From Nitrospirota bacterium (GTDB lineage: Bacteria > Nitrospirota > Thermodesulfovibrionia > Thermodesulfovibrionales > UBA1546), in contig JAPLLK010000066.1 in the NCBI GenBank assembly GCA_026387575.1, positions 1-46,631 on the forward strand: 46,631 nucleotides of DNA, written 5' to 3'. The notes under the pieces are model-generated. The model was not told where the DNA came from. It did no database searches and saw only the letters and a program-made list of their open reading frames with translations. How positions within the stretch are numbered: position 1 is the stretch's first letter; each line of letters begins with the position of its first letter. Positions 19,465 through 33,295 of the stretch are shown here, one piece after another. The position numbers were made by a program, and so were the translations under genes.

Positions 19465-19800
19465 ATGCCAATGATGAATTTTCAGGGGAAACAGATTGAG
19501 GTTGATGAGGACGGATATATTATTAATCTTGACGACTGGGACAAGGAAGTCGCCGTACAATTGGCGTTACAGGACGGTGTTACACTGACGGATGCTCACT
19601 GGGAAGTTATTAACTTCCTCAGAGATTACTACAAACAGTATCAGATTGCCCCCATGATAAAGATTCTCGTTAAAGAGCTCGGAAAGGCGATGGGGCCTGA
19701 AAAAGGCAACACAAAGTACCTTTACGAACTTTTTCCGGGCGGGCCTGCAAAGCAGGCATGTAAGTATGCAGGGCTTCCAAAACCAACGGGTTGCGTATAA
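19465..19800 (+). CDS. dsrC: DsrC, sulfur-carrier partner of dissimilatory sulfite reductase
   Basis: A 111-residue DsrC. The C-terminal arm has both redox cysteines: the penultimate Cys (GCV end) and a second Cys exactly 10 residues before it (CKYAGLPKPTGC). This two-cysteine pattern marks true DsrC rather than TusE. DsrC receives sulfur as a trisulfide from DsrAB, and DsrMKJOP is thought to reduce it. GGAGGGACG precedes the ATG at good spacing. A strong hairpin terminator follows, so dsrC can be expressed separately from, and more highly than, the downstream membrane-complex genes. dsrAB are not in this window. Confidence 0.96.
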   Translation: MPMMNFQGKQIEVDEDGYIINLDDWDKEVAVQLALQDGVTLTDAHWEVINFLRDYYKQYQIAPMIKILVKELGKAMGPEKGNTKYLYELFPGGPAKQACKYAGLPKPTGCV

Positions 19801-19807
19801 GGAATTA

Positions 19808-19853
19808 AAGAAGTAAGGGGTTTTCTGCCTCTTACTTCTTATTTTTATTTTTT
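19808..19853 (+). terminator. Rho-independent terminator after dsrC
   Basis: AAGAAGTAAG (19808-19817) pairs with CTTACTTCTT (19831-19840), followed by a T-rich tract to 19853. It may be partly read through into the dsrM operon. Confidence 0.8.
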
Positions 19854-19932
19854 AAGAAAGCACTGATGATATTTGTGCGGGAGTTTAATCTCCACCGATC
19901 CAAAGAGTTACCGGGAGGGAACAAAGCCAGAT

Positions 19933-20505
19933 ATGAAACTGAACAGCCTCTTAGCAGATAAAAAGGATGCCATTTTAGAGAAATGGTTTGATGTAATAAT
20001 AGAAAGTTACCCTCCTGACACCTCAAATTTTTTGAAGAATCAGAGTAACCGATTTGCCAATCCTGCAGGGTCGGCTATTTCTCAGGGAATAGAAAATATA
20101 TTTGATGAACTCCTCAGAGGACTTAATCAGGAAAACACCTTACAGTTCCTTGATAATATTGTGAGAATAAGGGCAGTTCAGGATTTTACTCCCTCTCAGG
20201 CACTCTCTTTTATCTTCCCTCTGAAGAGAATTATCAGAGAAGAACTCACTGTTGAAATAGCTGGGAACCAACTTTTAGATGAAATCCTTGCCCTTGAATC
20301 TAAAATAGATGACCTCGCACTTTCAGCATTTGATATTTACATGAAGTGCAGGGAAAAGATTTATGAGATAAAGGCTAATGAGGTTAAGAGCATGACCTTT
20401 AGACTGTTGCAGATGGCTAATCTGATAAACGACACTGAGGGACACGAACCTGATTTCAAAGGAAACAATAAGCTTAAAATAAAAAGAGGAGAGGTAAAGA
20501 AATGA
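19933..20505 (+). CDS. RsbRD N-terminal domain-like protein of the dsr operon
   Basis: A 190-residue soluble helical protein resembling the globin-like RsbRD N-terminal domain (MKLNSLLADKKDAILEKWFD..., then LRGLNQENTLQFLDNIVRIRAVQDFTPSQAL). No STAS domain follows. Such a gene often precedes dsrM in sulfate reducers, so it may be a sensor or regulator of the complex; this is inference. ATG at 19933 was chosen over an in-frame TTG at 19873. A GGGAGGG box lies 12 nt upstream, a long spacing. It overlaps dsrM by 4 bp (ATGA). Confidence 0.75.
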   Translation: MKLNSLLADKKDAILEKWFDVIIESYPPDTSNFLKNQSNRFANPAGSAISQGIENIFDELLRGLNQENTLQFLDNIVRIRAVQDFTPSQALSFIFPLKRIIREELTVEIAGNQLLDEILALESKIDDLALSAFDIYMKCREKIYEIKANEVKSMTFRLLQMANLINDTEGHEPDFKGNNKLKIKRGEVKK

Positions 20506-21491
20506 GAATCCTATTTTCCTTCTTTGCTGTTATCGCGCTTGTTCTGTCTGCTTACGCAGGGGTGAAGATAGCAAACCTTCAATTTCTTTTTGGAGTTGTT
20601 ATTCCCTATATTGCAATTGCAATATTTATTCTGGGGTTCATCTATCGTGTGCTGAAATGGGGAAGCTCTCCTGTGCCGTTCCGCATACCTACAACCTGCG
20701 GACAACAGAAATCTCTGCCATGGATAAAACAGAACAGGATTGAAAACCCATCAAGCATCTCAGGCGTGATCATCAGAATGGCACTTGAGGTGCTGCTCTT
20801 CCGATCACTCTTCCGAAACTTAAAGACACAACTTAAGGAAGGCAAACTTGTATATGGGGAGGCTAAATGGCTCTGGCTGGCAGGTTTGGCGTTTCACTGG
20901 TCTTTCCTCATTATCTTTGTCAGGCATTTCAGGTTGTTCCTCCAGAATACTCCTTCCTTTATAAAAATGATTGAGGGACTTGATAGTTTTCTGCAACTGG
21001 GCGTCCCCGTGCTTTACATGACAGACGTTGTTCTTCTCGGATCTGTAACATACCTATTTCTGAGAAGGGTTTTCATTCCGCAGGTAAACTATATCTCCCT
21101 CGCAGCCGACTACTTCCCGCTTTTTCTGATACTTGGCATAGGCACATCAGGCGTGTTGATGAGATATTTTTACAAAGTGCATATTGTGAGTGTTAAGGAA
21201 CTCGTTATAGGGCTTGCAAGTTTACACCCTGTGATACCTCAGGGTATCGGTGTACTTTTTTATATCCACCTGTTTTTGATATCCACATTGCTTGTCTACT
21301 TCCCACTCAGCAAGCTGATGCATATGGGTGGGGTCTTCCTCAGCCCTACAAGAAATATGGTGAACAACAGCCGTATGGTAAGACATATAAATCCATGGAA
21401 TTATCCGGTGCATGTCCACACATATGAGGAATATGAGAATAATTTCAGGGGAAAAATGAAAAAAGCCGGAATACCTGTAGAAAAGGAGTGA
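20502..21491 (+). CDS. dsrM: DsrM, cytochrome b subunit of the DsrMKJOP complex
   Basis: A 329-residue integral membrane protein of the NarI-like cytochrome b family. Hydrophobic helices lie at about residues 3-22, 25-48, 120-145, 168-190, 205-225 and 245-270. Histidines in GLAFHWSFLIIFVRHFRLF and in the later helices are candidate heme b ligands. DsrM exchanges electrons with menaquinone and passes them to DsrK. It is the first membrane subunit in the order dsrMKJOP; dsrK starts 3 bp after its stop. Confidence 0.93.
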   Translation: MRILFSFFAVIALVLSAYAGVKIANLQFLFGVVIPYIAIAIFILGFIYRVLKWGSSPVPFRIPTTCGQQKSLPWIKQNRIENPSSISGVIIRMALEVLLFRSLFRNLKTQLKEGKLVYGEAKWLWLAGLAFHWSFLIIFVRHFRLFLQNTPSFIKMIEGLDSFLQLGVPVLYMTDVVLLGSVTYLFLRRVFIPQVNYISLAADYFPLFLILGIGTSGVLMRYFYKVHIVSVKELVIGLASLHPVIPQGIGVLFYIHLFLISTLLVYFPLSKLMHMGGVFLSPTRNMVNNSRMVRHINPWNYPVHVHTYEEYENNFRGKMKKAGIPVEKE

Positions 21492-21494
21492 CAT

Positions 21495-23111
21495 ATGGCA
21501 AAAAAATTTACTGCAAAACCAGATGAACTTTCAAAGGTAGACTACAAGCCGCCTAAAAAAGGATGGATGGACACACCTGCTGAATTCAAGGAACACACAT
21601 TCTGCTGGGGCGCAAAAGGCAAAAACCTCGATGCTGTTAATTTTCCGAATGCACGTGACTGGTCTCCTGCAGAGGAAGACTGGAAGCTTCCGGAAAACTG
21701 GCAGGAGATTTTCCTTGAAGGCATAAGGGAAAGATTAGGCAAGTACCGTTCCTTCAAACTCTTTATGGATATATGCGTTAGGTGCGGTGCATGCGCTGAT
21801 AAATGTCATTTTTTTATAGGCGGAGGAGACCCGAAGAATATGCCGGTGCTCAGGGCAGAGCTTCTCAGGTCGATTTATAGGAAATATTTTACCGCATCAG
21901 GCAAAATGCTTGGGAAAATTGCAGGAGCCAGAGAGCTCACTCTCGATGTATTGAAGGAAATCTGGTATTACTATTACCAGTGTACGGAATGCAGGCGCTG
22001 TTCAGTCTTCTGCCCGTACGGAATTGACCAGGCTGAGATAACAATGGTGGGAAGAGAACTTACAAATCTGCTTGGACTGAATACAGATTGGATTGCAGGG
22101 CCTGTTGCCAATTGCTACATAAAAGGCAACCACATCGGTCTTGAACCGCACACAATAACAAACAGCGTGGAATTCTTCCTTGATGACATAGAGACAATAA
22201 CAGGCATAAGAATTAAGCCTACTTTCAATAGAAAGGGAGCAGAAATCCTTTTTGTAACTCCATCAGGCGACCTCTTTGCCGACCCCGGCACTTATACTGC
22301 AATGGGCTACCTTATGCTCTTCCATGAACTCGGTCTTGACTACACATGGAGCACATATGCCTCCGAAGGAGGAAACTTTGGGTTATTTACTTCCAATGAG
22401 ATGGCAAAAAGGCTCAATACAAAGATTTATGCAGAGGCAAAGAGACTCGGAGTAAAATGGATCATTGGAGGAGAATGCGGCCATATGTGGAGGGTTATAA
22501 ATCAGTACATGGATACATGGAACGGCCCTGCTGATTTCCTTGAGGAGCCTGTTTCTCCTATAACAGGCACAAAGTTTGAGAACGCAAAATCCACAAAGAT
22601 GGTTCATATAGCAGAATTCACTGCTGACCTTATCAAGAACGGAAAACTAAAGCTTGACCCGAGCAGGAATGACCGCCTCAAAGTCACATGGCACGACTCG
22701 TGTAACACAGCAAGAGGGATGGGGATTCTTGATGAACCAAGATATGTTCTGCGGAATGTATGCAACCACTTCTATGAAATGCCTGAAGACACCATCAGGG
22801 AAAAGACCTTCTGCTGCGGCAGCGGCGCTGGCCTGAACGCATCCGAAAATATGGATCTAAGGATGAGAGGCGGATTCCCCAGAGCAAATGCTGTTAAATA
22901 CGTCCGAGATAATTATGGCGTAAACATGCTGGCAAACATCTGCGCAATTGACAGGGTAGCTCTAAAGACATTAATGGAATACTGGGTGCCTGATGTGATG
23001 GTAACAGGACTTCATGAACTGGTAGGGAACGCCCTCGTAATGACGGGTGAAAAGAAAAGGACACAGGATTTGCGTCTTGAACCACTACCTGAAAAGGAGG
23101 CTAAAGAATAA
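21495..23111 (+). CDS. dsrK: DsrK, HdrD-like iron-sulfur subunit
   Basis: A 538-residue cytoplasmic catalytic subunit related to heterodisulfide reductase HdrD. Two [4Fe-4S] motifs appear: CVRCGACADKC (about residue 93) and CTECRRCSVFCPYG (about 163). The C-terminal CCG domain has GGECGHMW, WHDSCNTARGMG and FCCGSGAGLN, the ligands of the special cluster used for disulfide/trisulfide reduction. The proposed substrate is the DsrC trisulfide. Its stop overlaps the dsrJ start by one base (TAATG). Confidence 0.96.
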   Translation: MAKKFTAKPDELSKVDYKPPKKGWMDTPAEFKEHTFCWGAKGKNLDAVNFPNARDWSPAEEDWKLPENWQEIFLEGIRERLGKYRSFKLFMDICVRCGACADKCHFFIGGGDPKNMPVLRAELLRSIYRKYFTASGKMLGKIAGARELTLDVLKEIWYYYYQCTECRRCSVFCPYGIDQAEITMVGRELTNLLGLNTDWIAGPVANCYIKGNHIGLEPHTITNSVEFFLDDIETITGIRIKPTFNRKGAEILFVTPSGDLFADPGTYTAMGYLMLFHELGLDYTWSTYASEGGNFGLFTSNEMAKRLNTKIYAEAKRLGVKWIIGGECGHMWRVINQYMDTWNGPADFLEEPVSPITGTKFENAKSTKMVHIAEFTADLIKNGKLKLDPSRNDRLKVTWHDSCNTARGMGILDEPRYVLRNVCNHFYEMPEDTIREKTFCCGSGAGLNASENMDLRMRGGFPRANAVKYVRDNYGVNMLANICAIDRVALKTLMEYWVPDVMVTGLHELVGNALVMTGEKKRTQDLRLEPLPEKEAKE

Positions 23112-23548
23112 TGAAGATATATGGCGGAGGAAAGATATTCGTTGGCTTGATTATCTTTATCGGCTTGGCGACATCTCCTTTCTTATTTAATATCGGGAAA
23201 TCCAGTATTGTCCGGGATACAAAAGCTGCCGAAATCATGCAATCGATGGGACTACAGTGTGTAGAGAAAAAGGCATTTATGCTCCCTAATCATATGCGAT
23301 TATTGGACAAGTGGAGAGATTCAGTAGTTCGTAAAGGCAATAGACTTTATAAAGCCTCCGACGGTAAAGAGTATGAAATGAGCCTTCAGAACACATGCCT
23401 GAATTGCCATTCGGAAAAGAATGAAACCTGCAATGCATGCCACAGTAATATGGCAAGAAAGCATACCTGCAATGGGTGCCACAATTATATGGCAGTTAAC
23501 CCTTACTGCTGGGACTGCCATATTAAACCAAAGGAGACGAAGTCATGA
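23111..23548 (+). CDS. dsrJ: DsrJ multiheme cytochrome c, with four CxxCH motifs
   Basis: A 145-residue periplasmic cytochrome anchored or exported by an N-terminal hydrophobic segment (about residues 8-25). The DsrJ signature LQCVEKKAFMLPNHMRLLDKWRDSVVR carries the conserved Cys thought to ligate a heme. Known DsrJ proteins are triheme; this one has four CxxCH motifs (CLNCH, CNACH, CNGCH, CWDCH, residues about 97-137). Motifs two and three come from two adjacent 39-bp units, so the extra heme site looks like a tandem duplication. It overlaps dsrO by 4 bp (ATGA). Confidence 0.93.
   Translation: MKIYGGGKIFVGLIIFIGLATSPFLFNIGKSSIVRDTKAAEIMQSMGLQCVEKKAFMLPNHMRLLDKWRDSVVRKGNRLYKASDGKEYEMSLQNTCLNCHSEKNETCNACHSNMARKHTCNGCHNYMAVNPYCWDCHIKPKETKS
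23426..23503 (+). repeat. 39-bp tandem duplication of a heme-binding module in dsrJ
   Basis: Units 23426-23464 and 23465-23503 are adjacent, in frame, and identical at 30 of 39 positions. They encode TCNACHSNMARKH and TCNGCHNYMAVNP. Confidence 0.85.
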
Positions 23549-24369
23549 GCATGAATAGAAGAGACTTTTTAAAGATAGCAGGCATTTCTACAATAGCCGG
23601 TATTGGAGGCACAGCGATTGTCGGCGGATTGCAGAAAGGCGTGATAGAGGCTGCTCAGACTGCACCGGATACTGATACCCTCACAGGAAAGAAATGGGGA
23701 ATGGCTATTGACATGGATAAGATTAAATCAGAGGAAACTCTCAAGAGAGTTACAGAAGCCTGTCACCGCATTCACAATGTTCCGGACTTCAGCAATACAA
23801 AAGACGAGGTAAAGTGGATATGGACTGAAACCTTTGAGCATTCTTTCCCCGGGCAGGAACATCAATTTATGCCTGATGCCATAAAACACAAGCCTTTTCT
23901 GTTGCTCTGCAACCACTGTGACAAACCTGCATGTGTAAGGGTCTGTCCTACAAAAGCTACTTTCAAGCGGAAGGACGACGGAATTGTTATGCAGGATATG
24001 CACAGATGCATCGGATGCAGATTCTGCATGGCGGCTTGCCCTTTCGGTGCAAGGAGCTTCAATTATCGTGATCCGAGAACCGGGCTTAAGCCTGAAGAAA
24101 TTAACCTTGACTATCCAACAAGGACAAAAGGGGTGGTGGAAAAATGCACTTTCTGCCGTGAGAGACTTGCAAAAGGTCTTCAGCCTGCGTGCGTTGAAGC
24201 ATCTAACGGCGCATTGGTATTTGGCGACCTTAATGATCCCACATCCGAGATTAGAAGGATTCTCGCTTCAAAATATACCATCAGGCGCAAACCAGAACTC
24301 GGGACAGAGCCGAACATTTACTACATAATAGGAGGTAGTGACTATGCTGTTGTACCTGAAATCAAATAA
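23545..24369 (+). CDS. dsrO: DsrO, periplasmic ferredoxin-like subunit
   Basis: A 274-residue iron-sulfur protein with a Tat signal (NRRDFLKIAG, then a hydrophobic stretch), so it is exported folded. The cysteine clusters CNHCDKPACVRVCP, CIGCRFCMAACPFG and CTFCRERL with a later C...EAS place it with DmsB/HybA-type four-cluster ferredoxins. It is the electron link between DsrJ and the NrfD-like DsrP on the periplasmic side. dsrP follows 36 bp downstream with its own GGAGG box. Confidence 0.95.
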   Translation: MSMNRRDFLKIAGISTIAGIGGTAIVGGLQKGVIEAAQTAPDTDTLTGKKWGMAIDMDKIKSEETLKRVTEACHRIHNVPDFSNTKDEVKWIWTETFEHSFPGQEHQFMPDAIKHKPFLLLCNHCDKPACVRVCPTKATFKRKDDGIVMQDMHRCIGCRFCMAACPFGARSFNYRDPRTGLKPEEINLDYPTRTKGVVEKCTFCRERLAKGLQPACVEASNGALVFGDLNDPTSEIRRILASKYTIRRKPELGTEPNIYYIIGGSDYAVVPEIK

Positions 24370-24405
24370 ATATTATGTCCTGTTCGGAATAGGAGGTAAC
24401 TTATA

Positions 24406-25578
24406 ATGCTTGAAAAAGCTCTGAGCGGAAGCAAAAAATACTGGACATGGATTTTTATCCTGCTCGTTCTCATAGGGATAGGAACCGTTAACTATCTCAG
24501 GCAGTTTCAGACAGGCCTTGCAATAACAGGGCTTAGCAGGGACGTTTCATGGGGTCTGTATATAGGGCAGTTCACATTCCTTGTCGGCATAGCTGCATCC
24601 GGCGTCATGCTTGTTCTGCCATACTACCTGCACAATTTCAAACAGTTCGCAAATATTACAATACTCGGTGAGTTTCTGGCTGTATCAGCAGTCACAATGT
24701 GTATGCTATTCATTTTTGTTGATATGGGCCAGCCGATGAGGATTTTGAATGTGTTACTTTATCCGACGCCGAACTCAATCCTTTTCTGGGATTCAATAGT
24801 TTTAAGCGGTTACCTTGCCTTAAATATAACCATAGGCTGGGTCGTGCTTGGCTCTGACAAAAAAGGCATTGCTCCTCCGAAATGGATTAAACCCTTAATT
24901 TATATTTCAATAGCATGGGCGCCCTTAATCCACATAGTCACCGCATTTATCTATGCAGGAATTCCCGGAAGGCACTTCTGGCTGACTGCAATCATGGCAG
25001 CCAGATTCCTTGCATCAGCATTTTCAGGAGGTCCGGCGCTCCTTATAATTCTTGCCTTGATTATAAGGAAATTCACAAAGTTTGACCCCGGGAAAGAGGC
25101 TATCCAGACACTCGGAAAGATTGTTACATACTTCATGCTTACAAACGTATTCTTCTTCGCTCTTGAGTTTTTCACAGCTTTCTACAGCAATATACCTGGT
25201 CACATGCATCCGTTCGTATACCTTTTTGCAGGCCTTGATGGACATGCCAAACTTGTACCATTGATGTGGACATCAGTGATACTTGCAGTTGTATCGCTCC
25301 TGCTTCTCATATTCCCGGCTACAAGAAGGAATGAAGCAACCCTTGCAATAGCTGCTGCAATGGTCTTTATATCCCTCTGGATTGACAAGGGATTCGGCCT
25401 CATTATTGGCGGATTTGTTCCTAATATGTTCGAGAAGGTAACAGAGTACTGGCCAACGCTTCCCGAGGTACTGATTACAATCGGGGTATGGGCTACAGGA
25501 TTTCTGGTGCTTACCATCCTATATAAGATTGCGATTTCTGTGCGAGAAGAGACTGCAGGGATAGAAATAGAGCACTGA
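24406..25578 (+). CDS. dsrP: DsrP, NrfD-family membrane subunit
   Basis: A 390-residue integral membrane protein of the NrfD/PsrC family with about ten hydrophobic helices, starting at residues 13-30 (YWTWIFILLVLIGIGTVNYL) and ending near 355-378. TGLSRDVSWGLYIGQFTFLVGIAASG is a typical NrfD opening. It probably oxidises or reduces menaquinone and exchanges electrons with DsrO. It is the last gene of dsrMKJOP; a strong terminator follows 24 bp after the stop. Confidence 0.95.
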   Translation: MLEKALSGSKKYWTWIFILLVLIGIGTVNYLRQFQTGLAITGLSRDVSWGLYIGQFTFLVGIAASGVMLVLPYYLHNFKQFANITILGEFLAVSAVTMCMLFIFVDMGQPMRILNVLLYPTPNSILFWDSIVLSGYLALNITIGWVVLGSDKKGIAPPKWIKPLIYISIAWAPLIHIVTAFIYAGIPGRHFWLTAIMAARFLASAFSGGPALLIILALIIRKFTKFDPGKEAIQTLGKIVTYFMLTNVFFFALEFFTAFYSNIPGHMHPFVYLFAGLDGHAKLVPLMWTSVILAVVSLLLLIFPATRRNEATLAIAAAMVFISLWIDKGFGLIIGGFVPNMFEKVTEYWPTLPEVLITIGVWATGFLVLTILYKIAISVREETAGIEIEH

Positions 25579-29210: not shown

Positions 29211-30224
29211 ATGCTTGACACAGACTCTTTCAAAAAAGTGTTTCTCAGTGAATTAGATAAGGCTGCGTCTACATCTGAGCTTCAGCAGGTGCGGATTAAA
29301 TACCTCGGGAAAAAGGGATTACTGACAGCTCAGCTTAAAAATCTTTCTACGATGCCTGCCGAAGAAAAACGGTCTTTTGGAAAAGCGGTAAATGAGCTTA
29401 AAGGATTTGTTGAAAACGAGATCGCCTTAAAAGAGTCTGCTTTGGGCAATGCAGACCTTAAGAAAAGACTCTCCTCAGAGACTATAGATGTAACACTTCC
29501 TGGGAAATACACACCAGTAGGCAGGGAACATCCGATAAATAAAGTTCTGCGGGAGATTGAAGATATTTTTATCTCGATGGGTTTTGGCGTTGAAGAGGGA
29601 CCGCAGGTTGAACTTGATTACTATAACTTTGAGGCATTGAACATGCCGAAAGACCATCCTGCGCGGGACATGCAGGATACATTCTACATCACAGATGACG
29701 TGATACTGAGGACTCACACATCTCCTGTTCAGATAAGGACAATGGAGAAAAAGAAACCGCCCCTGAGATTCATTGCGCCGGGCAAGGTTTACAGATGCGA
29801 CGCTGATATTTCCCATACGCCGATGTTTCATCAGGTTGAAGGCCTGATGGTTGATACAGATATCTCTTTCAGCGACCTCAAGGGCGTGCTTGAGACATTC
29901 ATCCATAGGATATTCAATCCTGAGACTTCTGTAAGGTTCAGACCGAGTTTCTTCCCATTTACAGAACCATCAGCAGAGGTTGATATCGGCTGCATATTCT
30001 GTAAAGGCAGTGGCTGTCAGGTATGCAAGGGAACAGGATGGCTTGAGATACTTGGCGCCGGCATGGTAAACCCTCGAGTATTTGAGATGGTGGGATACAA
30101 TCCCGCAATCTATACCGGCTTCGCATTCGGCATGGGCGTGGAAAGAATAACCATGCTCAAGTATGGGATTGATGATATCAGGCTGTTTTTTGAGAATGAC
30201 CTCCGCTTTCTGAGACAGTTTTAG
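29211..30224 (+). CDS. pheS: Phenylalanyl-tRNA synthetase alpha subunit
   Basis: A 337-residue alpha chain of the alpha2beta2 enzyme. An N-terminal coiled coil (about 1-85) is followed by the class II core: [74 protein letters not shown], and [19 protein letters not shown] with a CxxC...CxxC cysteine set, ending [32 protein letters not shown]. pheT, which nearly always follows, is not here: an accessory island begins immediately after the stop. Confidence 0.96.
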
Positions 30225-30504
30225 AAACTCATTACCCGCCTAAAATGATTAGCCTTGTTTGAGAATTTCACCTGCAAATACGCAGGCATCTAACATCAAA
30301 ACAGTTATTAAGTACTACACGAACTGTGCAATTGCGATGTATCGGCATATTCCGCGTGTTTCATCAAAAAGAAATCAGCGGTGACAATTTCCCAATGTTT
30401 TACGACCTTTCGCTTTTAGTCCATATTCCCGCAAAAAGCCAAGTATCGCATATTGCTTTCCATTGATTTATATGTTATACGCCTTAATAAACAGGGAGGG
30501 AAAA
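30225..30504. other. Gene-free stretch after pheS
   Basis: No convincing gene is seen in these 280 bp. Small hairpins occur (CCTGC/GCAGG near 30272-30287, and ACAGTT/AACTGT near 30301-30327). GTTATAC at 30474-30480 resembles a cassette core site and is identical to the one at 32069-32075. A short open frame on the minus strand (about 30 codons, 30380-30465) matches nothing I recognise. No remnant of pheT is visible. Confidence 0.5.
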
Positions 30505-30969
30505 ATGAAACGTTTTGACCTGCGAGTACTCTTCTTATTAGCCCTTGTACTTTTTCCTTTAGAATCTTTGGCCGAAGATACAGCCCATACTATCCCCATC
30601 GGTACATGGCAGGGAGAATGGAGTAATATAGGAGGCTACGTTTATGTTGCAGAGCTGGTTTTACAAGATTCGCGCGATGGGGAAATTGGGAAGATAGAGG
30701 GTTACATCAAATGGATATTGCGAAAGTCGCCACGCGCCGAAGAACAATCGAAGCTTGGCTCGGCGGGGACAGAATACGTTAGGGGTACATATGACCCCAT
30801 TAACCGAGTGCTCAGCGTTGACGGATATGACAAAACTGATCCAAACAACATCCTTGGTCTGGACAAATATAGATTAGTATTCGCCGAGAATGGGAAGGCG
30901 TTGGGAGGAATCACATGGAATAACGGGAATTGGCAAGGAAAAATATTTCTTGTACGTACTCCCCAATAG
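30505..30969 (+). CDS. Secreted beta-rich protein of unknown function
   Basis: A 154-residue protein not assigned to a family. Residues 1-22 form a signal peptide (LRVLFLLALVLFPLESLA, cleavage near AED). The mature part alternates short beta stretches (IGTWQGEWSNIGGYVYVAELVL, then GKIEGYIKWIL, VRGTYDPINRVLSVDGYD, KYRLVFAENGKALGGITWNNGNWQGKIFLV), suggesting a small beta-barrel or sandwich. The ATG at 30505 sits behind GGGAGGG; a start at 30463 would add 14 residues ahead of the signal. It is the first of four same-strand orphan genes in the cassette island; its own attC was not clearly found. Confidence 0.7.
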   Translation: MKRFDLRVLFLLALVLFPLESLAEDTAHTIPIGTWQGEWSNIGGYVYVAELVLQDSRDGEIGKIEGYIKWILRKSPRAEEQSKLGSAGTEYVRGTYDPINRVLSVDGYDKTDPNNILGLDKYRLVFAENGKALGGITWNNGNWQGKIFLVRTPQ

Positions 30970-31080
30970 CCTGCGGTGTTACATATACATTAAACATCTG
31001 CTAATGATGATTTCTCTTGACTCAACCCACGGTTTTTCCCTAAAGTATCACAAGAAGACGCATGCGGCATAAAAAACAAT

Positions 31081-31087
31081 GTTGGGC
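31081..31087 (+). other. attC core site (GTTGGGC), left end of cassette A
   Basis: A consensus GTTRRRY heptamer. Its complement GCCCAA(A)C appears at the other end of the same unit. A convincing palindrome to its left, which would be the attC of the preceding gene, was not found. Confidence 0.5.
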
Positions 31088-31160
31088 GTCAACAATGGCA
31101 ATCGATTTCAGGCATCCTTCGGATGCTTATCATCACCACATAGACAAAAGGAAGGCTTAA

Positions 31161-31364
31161 ATGCGTAACGTAATTTTTGTTGTTTTGGCTGTCATTCTGT
31201 CAGGGTGTGCAAGTCAAGCTGGTCCATTCGTCACTAACATTAGTAGCGATGGACGAGGCGGCCTCACAGTTGAAAAGTGCATGGTTCGGCTTGATCGCAT
31301 GATCAATACTGTCGAGGCTTCAAACTGCACAAACACGACAATAACCCTCAACAACGGGCGCTAA
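31161..31364 (+). CDS. Small lipoprotein of unknown function
   Basis: A 67-residue protein with a clear lipoprotein signal: NVIFVVLAVILSGC, a lipobox LSGC with Cys at residue 15. The mature 53 residues include two further cysteines (EKCMVRLDRM and ASNCTNT) and end TITLNNGR. It has the size and secreted nature typical of integron cassette genes. An AAGGAAGG box precedes the ATG. The stop lies 5 bp before the attC-like site. No named family is recognised. Confidence 0.7.
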   Translation: MRNVIFVVLAVILSGCASQAGPFVTNISSDGRGGLTVEKCMVRLDRMINTVEASNCTNTTITLNNGR

Positions 31365-31369
31365 ATTTA

Positions 31370-31438
31370 CGCCCAAACAGGCGCTCCAGCCACGGGCCAC
31401 AAAAAGCCGTGGCCCGTGGCTGAGCTTGGTCGTTAGGA
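31370..31438 (+). other. attC-like recombination site A
   Basis: R'' CGCCCAAAC (31370-31378), then GCTC, an unpaired C (31387) and AGCCACGGGCCAC (31388-31400). An 8-nt loop follows, then the exact complement GTGGCCCGTGGCT (31409-31421), GAGC (31422-31425) and R' GTTAGGA (31432-31438). Paired arms with one extrahelical base on one side and short spacers next to the core sites are the attC design. Confidence 0.7.
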
Positions 31439-31449
31439 GAACATAATAA

Positions 31450-31980
31450 ATGAATACTACGGCATTAAAAAAAGAATATAAAGGCAATGTAGGCTTATTC
31501 CTGGTTTGCCTCGAAATCTCCAAAATGAATCTGATCGCATTGCCCACGTCAAGAAATACAAAGGGCTTGGATCTAATTGCGCTTCATCCCGAAACAAACA
31601 AGGCAATCGGGCTGCAAGTGAAATGCAGCGATAAAAAGAAATCGCCAATTTTAGCGTCGTATTGGCATAACTACAAGGAAACAATACAGAACAAAATAAT
31701 ATCGCCTTTTATTTTCGTAGATATATCTGTACTGGAGAAACCGCAATACTTTATATTGTCAAAAACACAGATAACAAGAATCCTAACAAAACTTATTGAG
31801 GATTACATCAAAGATTATACGCAACGCAACGGTGTCACTTTTGAAGACATCTGTACTAAGGAACAATTGAAGGACAAGGACAAGGACAAGAACAAGAACG
31901 CTGATAACTGGGTATTGAATTATGACCAATTCGCAGCATATCTCAATAAATGGGACTCTATAACAAACCTGATAAAATAA
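31450..31980 (+). CDS. PD-(D/E)XK nuclease-fold-like cassette protein
   Basis: A 176-residue protein. The N-terminal half resembles the restriction-endonuclease-like fold: a helix (GNVGLFLVCLEISKMN), then TSRNTKGLDLIAL with a candidate catalytic Asp, and IGLQVKCSDKK, matching the (D/E)xK strand as QVK. Proteins of this form occur in integron cassettes and near defence genes. The C-terminal part is helical and contains a low-complexity KDKDKDKNKN from 6-bp repeats (AAGGAC). Nuclease activity is unproven; the gene could also encode an inactive nucleic-acid-binding protein. It lies between attC-like sites A and B. Confidence 0.7.
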   Translation: MNTTALKKEYKGNVGLFLVCLEISKMNLIALPTSRNTKGLDLIALHPETNKAIGLQVKCSDKKKSPILASYWHNYKETIQNKIISPFIFVDISVLEKPQYFILSKTQITRILTKLIEDYIKDYTQRNGVTFEDICTKEQLKDKDKDKNKNADNWVLNYDQFAAYLNKWDSITNLIK

Positions 31981-31983
31981 TAA

Positions 31984-32075
31984 CTCCTAACACGCAAATC
32001 AACCCGACTGGCGATAATGGCGGTTTGGTTTTCGTCTTTTGTCTGTGCGCCAGCGGGTTATTTTTTTCGTTATAC
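31984..32075 (+). other. attC-like recombination site B
   Basis: R'' CTCCTAAC (31984-31991), a 9-nt spacer, then AACCCG, an extra A (32007) and CTGGCG (to 32013). A 34-nt loop follows, then CGCCAGCGGGTT (32048-32059), a 9-nt spacer and R' GTTATAC (32069-32075). The arms are complementary except for one extrahelical base, and the spacers are symmetric. Confidence 0.72.
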
Positions 32076-32102
32076 ATCAGACATAAGCAGCGGTGATATC
32101 AA

Positions 32103-32612
32103 ATGATAGAATCAGGTTCAAAAGATACAATTGAGGCAATCTTCGAGCGCGCAATAGAAATTGAATACAAAGCTGCTGGTATTTACAGAGACTTCTCGCA
32201 AGTATTCTCACATATTCCGAAAGTTTCTGCTTTCTGGCGAGAATTGTCTGAGGATGAAATGCAGCATGCGAACACGCTACAAGATGTTCGCAAATCATTG
32301 ACTGTCGAGCAGCTTCTATCGCCCTGTGATAAAGAAATGTCGGAGAAAGTTGCAAGAGTCCAACGCATGCTGAGTGAGGATTTAGCTGCTTCAATCAAGA
32401 ACTTAGATGATGCCTACGAGTTGGCGCACGAATTGGAGTCCTCTGAAGTGAATGCTATATTCGAATTCCTAACAATTGAGTTTGTCCCGTCTGAAGAACG
32501 GATACGATTCATTGTTTCGGTAATAACGCAGCACCTGCTGAAGCTCGTGGATTTTAGCCGCAATTTCGGAGATAGAGATTGGAGAAAAGAGATCAGCATT
32601 CACGCTGTTTAA
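32103..32612 (+). CDS. Ferritin-like (rubrerythrin-type) protein
   Basis: A 169-residue, all-helical protein resembling the ferritin/rubrerythrin diiron family. Helix 1 has AIEIEYKAAGIYRDFSQVF with a ligand-type Glu, helix 2 has FWRELSEDEMQHANTLQ (the ExxH-like DEMQH), and helix 3 has YELAHELESSEVNAIFEFL. No rubredoxin domain follows. It may bind iron or handle peroxide; the two-iron site is not complete enough to be sure. Its last codons overlap the R'' core of attC-like site C. Confidence 0.7.
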   Translation: MIESGSKDTIEAIFERAIEIEYKAAGIYRDFSQVFSHIPKVSAFWRELSEDEMQHANTLQDVRKSLTVEQLLSPCDKEMSEKVARVQRMLSEDLAASIKNLDDAYELAHELESSEVNAIFEFLTIEFVPSEERIRFIVSVITQHLLKLVDFSRNFGDRDWRKEISIHAV

Positions 32613-32724
32613 CATGGTCAGCCTCTATCCAGAAAAATTGAAACAAGCAGACATGTCGTTTTCTTAAAAATGCGTGTTCCTGTGAGAAATCCGCAATCCT
32701 TCATAGAGACTCTGATTGTTTAGT
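32607..32724 (+). other. Possible attC-like site C
   Basis: R'' GTTTAAC overlaps the stop of the ferritin-like gene. TCAG (32618-32621) and CTCTAT (32623-32628) pair with ATAGAG (32703-32708) and CTGA (32712-32715), followed by GTTTAGT (32718-32724). The match is weaker than at sites A and B. Confidence 0.4.
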
Positions 32725-32779: not shown

Positions 32780-33277
32780 TCACCTGTAATTCACAAACTC
32801 CATATGTATCCCGAAATCTTTCCCTTTGAGCATTGTCATGACTAATTGCAAGTCGTCTATCTTTTTGGCTCTGACTCTTAATTGGTCTTTCTGAATCTCT
32901 GCCTGAACCTTCATCTTTGAATCCTTAATAATCTTCGCAATCTCCTTTGCCTTCTCCTGCGCTATCCCCTGCTGAAGCTTTATGACCTGCCTTACGGTGC
33001 CGCCTGCTGCCGGCTCAATTTTACCGTAATCAAGGGATTTAAGCGATACACCGCGCTTTACGAGCTTTGACTGGAGTATGTCTACTACGCTCTTGATCTT
33101 GTTCTCATCATCAGAGATTAGGGTAATCTCTGCGTTTTCCTTGTTGAAATCTATACTGCTCTTGCTCCCTTTGAAATCAAACCTCTGGCCAATCTCTTTT
33201 GTTGCCTGCTGAACAGAGTTTAATACCTCCTGCATGTCAACCTTGCTTACTATGTCAAACGAATGTTCATCTGCCAT
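32780..33277 (-). CDS. yajQ: YajQ family nucleotide-binding protein
   Basis: A 165-residue YajQ protein with two ferredoxin-like subdomains: [20 protein letters not shown], then [76 protein letters not shown], and the C-terminal [11 protein letters not shown]. Some members bind cyclic di-GMP; the general role is unclear. The ATG at 33277 was chosen because GAGGAGG lies 7 nt upstream. It follows the Mut7-C gene by 18 bp and ends the rpo-operon strand. Confidence 0.93.
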
Positions 33278-33295
33278 CTGCAAACCTCCTCATTA

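Follow-up and report, generated by a model that had tools for sequence, protein, structure and literature searches.

A leader-headed, integrase-free integron cassette cluster between pheS and yajQ in a Nitrospirota genome, and its dispersed relatives

The usual picture of an integron is a single landing site with a single integrase beside it. Among the described systems that resemble the locus presented here are the CALINs of IntegronFinder (two or more attC sites with less than 4 kb between them, in one orientation, with short orphan genes and no adjacent intI), of which the IntegronFinder 2.0 survey of RefSeq found only two in Nitrospira (PMC9024848). The chromosomal integrons of Nitrospirota and Thermodesulfovibrionales (intI, attI and cassettes, as on contig C220 of genome G004) share with it a homologous leader and the attC architecture. 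The IMU and other MITE-bounded integrons hold an integron segment between inverted ends, with no transposase inside (PMC13367494); delta-attI-type cassettes tie attI-derived sequence to cassettes outside its normal position (PMC12901181); and insertion at attG, as cited in PMC12444791, places cassettes at many non-integron loci.

The unit described here differs from each of these systems. Unlike a CALIN, it starts with a detached intI-attI leader, closes with a conserved right end and has many dispersed copies; unlike the chromosomal integrons of the order, it keeps only the first ~5 codons of intI. The IMU is a Tn3-derived MITE pair around a plasmid resistance integron (PMC13367494), whereas the repeats found here are short, chromosomal and, as far as seen, unrelated to those of the IMU. 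Delta-attI-type cassettes have their attI remnant as a 3' site (PMC12901181), whereas here it heads the unit together with the start of intI, and in contrast to attG insertion the units include the leader. CALINs are already known; dispersed, leader-headed, integrase-less platforms with a defined left end look like a new variation on them. The open-licence literature searched held nothing relevant on such platforms or on a detached or ectopic attI; since the search covered open-licence papers only, this argues just weakly for novelty.

The stretch of DNA analysed (46,631 nucleotides, hereafter the window) is contig C76 of G000, a genome of 1.63 Mb that is 92% complete; the named relatives of its pheS reach 74% identity at best and place it near Thermodesulfovibrionales, Nitrospirota. 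Genes for DsrC and then DsrMKJOP-like proteins, at window positions 19465-25578, point to sulfur or sulfite respiration. The whole unit between pheS and yajQ spans ~30336-32692 and comprises the leader, four cassettes, two good attC sites and the right end (Table 1).

Table 1. Features of the pheS-yajQ region, in window positions
Feature	Position	Strand	Remarks
pheS, host gene 5' of the unit	29211..30224	+	ORF; 90-96% identical in congeners
Left flank of the unit	30336..30382	+	87% to G001 C18 over 30336-30469
Detached integron leader	30383..30474	+	Homologue of the DNA that separates intI from the cassettes in intact integrons
Cassette 1, core GTTATAC	30474..31080	+	attC degenerate or lost; no covariance-model match
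ORF of cassette 1	30505..30969	+	154 aa, probably secreted, no family
Cassette 2, core GTTGGGC	31081..31431	+	ORF 31161-31364, 67 aa, lipoprotein-like
attC site A	31371..31438	+	R'' CCCAAAC, R' GTTAGGA; 18.8 bits, E 0.0074; fold z -5.8
Cassette 3, core GTTAGGA	31432..32068	+	ORF 31450-31980, 176 aa, no family
attC site B	31985..32075	+	R'' TCCTAAC, R' GTTATAC; 51.9 bits, E 5.2e-12
Cassette 4, core GTTATAC	32069..32635	+	ORF 32103-32612, 169 aa, rubrerythrin/ferritin-like, Pfam PF02915 E 2e-7
Conserved right end (trailer), ~57 bp	32636..32692	+	Ends ...CTGTGAGAAATCC; copies elsewhere in genus
yajQ, convergent host gene 3' of the unit	32780..33283	-	NF003819 E 4e-63

The original prediction had placed three orphan genes between core-like heptamers and three palindromic spacers behind them. 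The heptamers are as it stated (GTTGGGC at 31081-31087, GTTAGGA at 31432-31438, GTTATAC at 32069-32075), with the correction that there is a fourth gene, that of cassette 1, and a larger unit. Two of the spacers are attC sites, A and B, whereas the attC of the last cassette is truncated, its R'' (TGTTTAAC at 32606-32613) being followed by an incomplete remainder. Rfam returned only a tRNA at the gathering threshold, and PADLOC matches to the cassette proteins were weak (E about 0.02) and were set aside.

A strict core pattern (RYYYAAC...GTTRRRY) missed both window sites and most attC sites of Nitrospirota, and a relaxed hairpin scan, in which no other hairpin of the window ranked above site A, gave many background matches. 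Because of these two outcomes a covariance model was built from 15 attC sites, five from class 1 integrons of plasmids and ten from beside intact intI genes of the same order, with no sequence from the window genome. With filters off, this model recovered sites B and A as its two best matches in the window (Table 1), the third-ranked match in the 46.6 kb scoring 10.6 bits. Site B is the top attC of the whole genome by this model; site A, which has a short loop, is weak at the genome-wide scale (E 0.26). The bottom strand of site A folds into a strong hairpin at -24 kcal/mol, against -11.9 for shuffled sequences (0/200 shuffles), and that of site B folds with a z of -1.8. Both sites have R''/R' cores and complementary arms with an extrahelical base in the left arm of the top strand, as had been predicted: an extra C relative to the right arm in each (GCTCCAGCC/GCTCAGCC at site A), of the same polarity as the extra base in the attC sites of aadA2, gcuF and catB3. 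By sequence, A and B are genuine attC sites, which makes two out of three spacers.

When a cassette is excised as a circle, its start completes its own R'' core. This closure is exact over 8 nt in cassette 3 (GTTAGGAG/CTCCTAAC) and holds at 7/8 positions in cassette 4; cassette 2 closes only if a 1-base indel is admitted. Elsewhere in the genome it is exact for all cassettes tested, three on contig C93 and one on C44. In the pooled pairs of own 5' end and R'', 31/35 variable positions match, a value reached by 10/20,000 permutations. A row of ordinary orphan genes separated by chance hairpins or terminators, to which the modest genome-wide score of site A might point, has next to no probability left: it is refuted by the E-value of site B (5e-12), by closure, by the homology of the leader to integrons, and by a survey of the phylum with the covariance model at E <= 1e-5 and stricter filters, in which 127/296 genomes have attC matches and 169/296 have none.

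Sites A and B lie about 550 bp apart, well under 4 kb (by our covariance model rather than that of IntegronFinder, and with site A weak genome-wide), and no integron integrase lies nearby, the window containing only XerD. The description of the locus as an integrase-free, CALIN-like cassette cluster behind pheS is borne out by the attC model matches, by closure, by the absence of the cluster in other genera and by the differing contents of congeners. The absence of intI is true of the window; the genome as a whole has no TIGR02249 match above cut-off (at 92% completeness) and no functional intI beside an attI and an array, but the final ~31 aa of such an integrase survive on contig C62 (TIGR02249 positions 284-314, E 3e-8), beside a cassette-like gene whose attC scores 31.8 bits. 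At this place (C62 6012-6856; locus L005 1501-2347) the cassette is DUF336/GlcG-like, its attC is clear, and fragment and cassette lie between tlyA-like and comEC-like genes, named by reading the sequence. About ten attC matches of >=30 bits are spread over seven contigs of the genome, one site being counted on both strands. On contig C93 (locus L157 2830-6123) a three-cassette array lies beside a broken tyrosine integrase and is flanked on both sides by repeated tRNA-end-like sequences (ORFs containing SEPCRIRTCDPLIK); it is probably a decayed integrative element.

The idea that cassettes would be unusual in Nitrospirota does not hold, as the phylum survey above already indicates. An intI above the NCBIfam cut-off is present in 46/176 genomes of the order, several of which hold two or three intI genes, and integrons are therefore ordinary in this lineage. 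Three congeners (G001, G004, G005) have a full intI. Covariance-model attC sites occur in 16/16 genomes of the family, including some without an intI over the reported threshold, and the printed matches show the full attC anatomy.

The leader of the window unit retains the first ~5 codons of intI, divergent and with a mutated start codon, and the attI/leader motif CTTTTAGTCCATATT(A/C)CCGCAAAA. The start of intI in the leader reads ...GGACAATTTTGCCAT, the reverse complement of ATG GCA AAA TTG TCC, and the IntI of G004 begins MGNLS; a promoter-like TGTGCTATATT is present in other leader copies and deleted from that of the window. Its homologues are the gaps that separate intI from the first cassette where integrons of the order are intact (G004 C220, G046 C64, G063 C24, G118, G025, G114 and G123), and from this position and homology we regard the leader as a putative attI-type site and attI/Pc region. 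Further copies lie on contigs C44, C93, C85 and C19 of the window genome; copies without intI are scattered across most genomes of the family and leader dispersal is order-wide, all leader counts being lower bounds. Among 62 leader matches (a few of the loci overlap, and most were picked by the leader alone), 27 have an attC on the same strand within <=3.5 kb downstream and none has one on the opposite strand; the other 35 have no downstream attC match, in some cases owing to contig ends or low-scoring attC sites.

About 20 loci with unrelated upstream DNA share the left end (G)GACAATTTTGCCAT, beginning at GAC, 15 nt inside intI (codon 5), within 1-2 nt of each other; about seven other leader loci run on into intI. 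The recurrence of one left end speaks against random decay, and thus bears on a reading in which the locus is the relic of a complete integron whose intI, once between pheS and the leader, was deleted, the scattered copies being several old integrons that had each lost intI and the leader units never having been mobile by themselves. Such an origin is conceivable but doubtful. It would fit with the two or three intI genes of several genomes of the order, with the intI remnants kept by G062 (a C-terminus at the leader), by contig C138 of G005 (45 N-terminal aa) and by C62 of the window genome, and with the usual interpretation of CALINs as degraded integrons (PMC9024848). Random deletions would, however, be expected to leave scattered breakpoints rather than this shared start, and one leader with its RsgA-like cassette is found at two different loci (see below). 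In G062 (L175, L203) the leader is fused directly to the C-terminus of intI, from about residue 360-379, an internal deletion of intI that begins near the codon-5 position of the dispersed units.

The junction bases at the left end vary (GGAC/GAC), and a simple G^TT crossover was for this reason not adopted there. The same variation, which does not consistently fit G^TT, counts against off-target insertion by IntI, in which cassettes would have entered attG-like chromosomal sites directly, with one event per locus. The scatter of cassettes over many loci reported in E. coli (cited in PMC12444791) provides a precedent, and attC matches of the window genome also occur on contigs without a detected leader (C75, C58), leader counts again being lower bounds. 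But the leader, present in the window unit and in many others, is not something that the mere insertion of cassettes would bring along, and we consider this route improbable.

Comparison with relatives shows how the locus varies. In other genera of the family (G008, G011) the gap between pheS and yajQ is 6-8 bp, whereas in the congeners G001, G002 and G006 1.3-1.7 kb of other sequence separates the two genes. The original suggestion that the cluster interrupts a pheS-pheT pair is rejected, because pheS-yajQ is the synteny of the family and yajQ is the downstream neighbour here; G005 (L040) alone has pheS and pheT adjacent, while other family members show pheS-yajQ, and pheT has therefore relocated at least once. 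Different genes stand behind the same leader at orthologous pheS-yajQ loci. G001 has an RsgA-like GTPase cassette in a unit inverted relative to that of the window; G002 has one gene, again a different one, whose attC-like site was recognised by eye only. The predicted gain and loss of cassettes between relatives is thus seen in sister species as different cassettes or an inverted unit. At another locus, G011 and G015 have the same leader in the same place, followed by different genes, no attC being detected in G015; G014 was considered as a possible empty counterpart of the G011 unit and discarded, the region being rearranged.

The unit on contig C44 of the window genome and that on C18 of G001 (the pheS-yajQ locus) have the leader and the RsgA-like cassette in common, with 92% identity over 1291 bp at different loci, and their homology begins exactly at GACAATTT. 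The RsgA-like cassette thus occurs in two species (L037 2530-3812 and L158 6280-7560), where the genes are 92% identical and the attC arms differ. At the locus of the C44 unit, G003 has no unit but does carry TGACAATTT; because this unit-less site has those bases, part of the left end may be target sequence or scar. Contigs C17 and C18 of G001 share the leader flank and the 57-bp right end around different cassettes, the unit on C18 likewise has the leader and the right end in common with the window unit and with G006 C8, whose cassettes differ from its own, and the left flank of the window unit recurs at several different loci within the genus (G001 C17, G003 C134, G006 C8, G002). Four genomes of the genus contain 11 occurrences of the right end, most of which immediately follow the R' of an attC.

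The two ends form an imperfect terminal inverted repeat, the left end GGATTTCTACACGTAACTCGC matching the reverse complement of the right end, GGATTTCTCACAGTACCTCGC, at 16/21 positions, which 5/200,000 random pairs reach when the choice of the end start points is left uncorrected. Terminal inverted repeats common to independent copies are a mark of mobilization units and MITEs, and the leader-cassette block might accordingly be a non-autonomous element moved by a transposase acting in trans. The match of the ends, their sharing by units at different loci and the inversion of the unit in G001 all point this way. Against it, no target-site duplication was recognised at the unit junctions examined, no transposase or recombinase was seen linked to the platform ends in a non-systematic inspection, and the inverted-repeat ends occur only in this genus (g1) while leader dispersal is order-wide. 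Taken as the explanation by itself, it is rather unlikely; it is compatible with the explanation that we favour below and would supply its missing step, and both it and the relic reading may be partly true.

The attC sites, the closure, the leader homology, the right end and the differing contents in relatives can all be read from the DNA. We consider it probable that the cluster is an integrase-less integron at an ectopic platform, whose cassettes were inserted and exchanged by IntI acting in trans, and that such platforms have spread as units. IntI recombination (attC x attI or attC x attC) would bring cassettes into the detached attI-type site and take them out again, with IntI presumably supplied by a full integron elsewhere in the genome; some sister species would still have this donor integron whole, and the window genome just a 3' fragment of it. 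The leader-headed platforms themselves may have spread as units, which in this genus seem to have short inverted repeats at their ends. The lack of a recognisable attC in cassette 1 and the incomplete attC of cassette 4 speak against this explanation. As only the 3' fragment of intI remains in the genome, the window cluster is probably frozen, and current activity is doubtful because no intact intI was found in a genome that is 92% complete.

A broader proposal, which we put forward tentatively as a possibility, is that Thermodesulfovibrionales harbor 'satellite integrons', mobile integrase-less attI-Pc platforms filled by IntI in trans, so that one integrase would serve many sites; the left end of such platforms would lie at a defined point within intI, and in one genus their ends would be inverted repeats. 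If this is true, many chromosomal loci per genome would capture cassettes and might express them, and the single or paired orphan attC sites that surveys discard or call decay would be explained. Comparisons between sister species make both the movement of the units and the action of IntI in trans testable.
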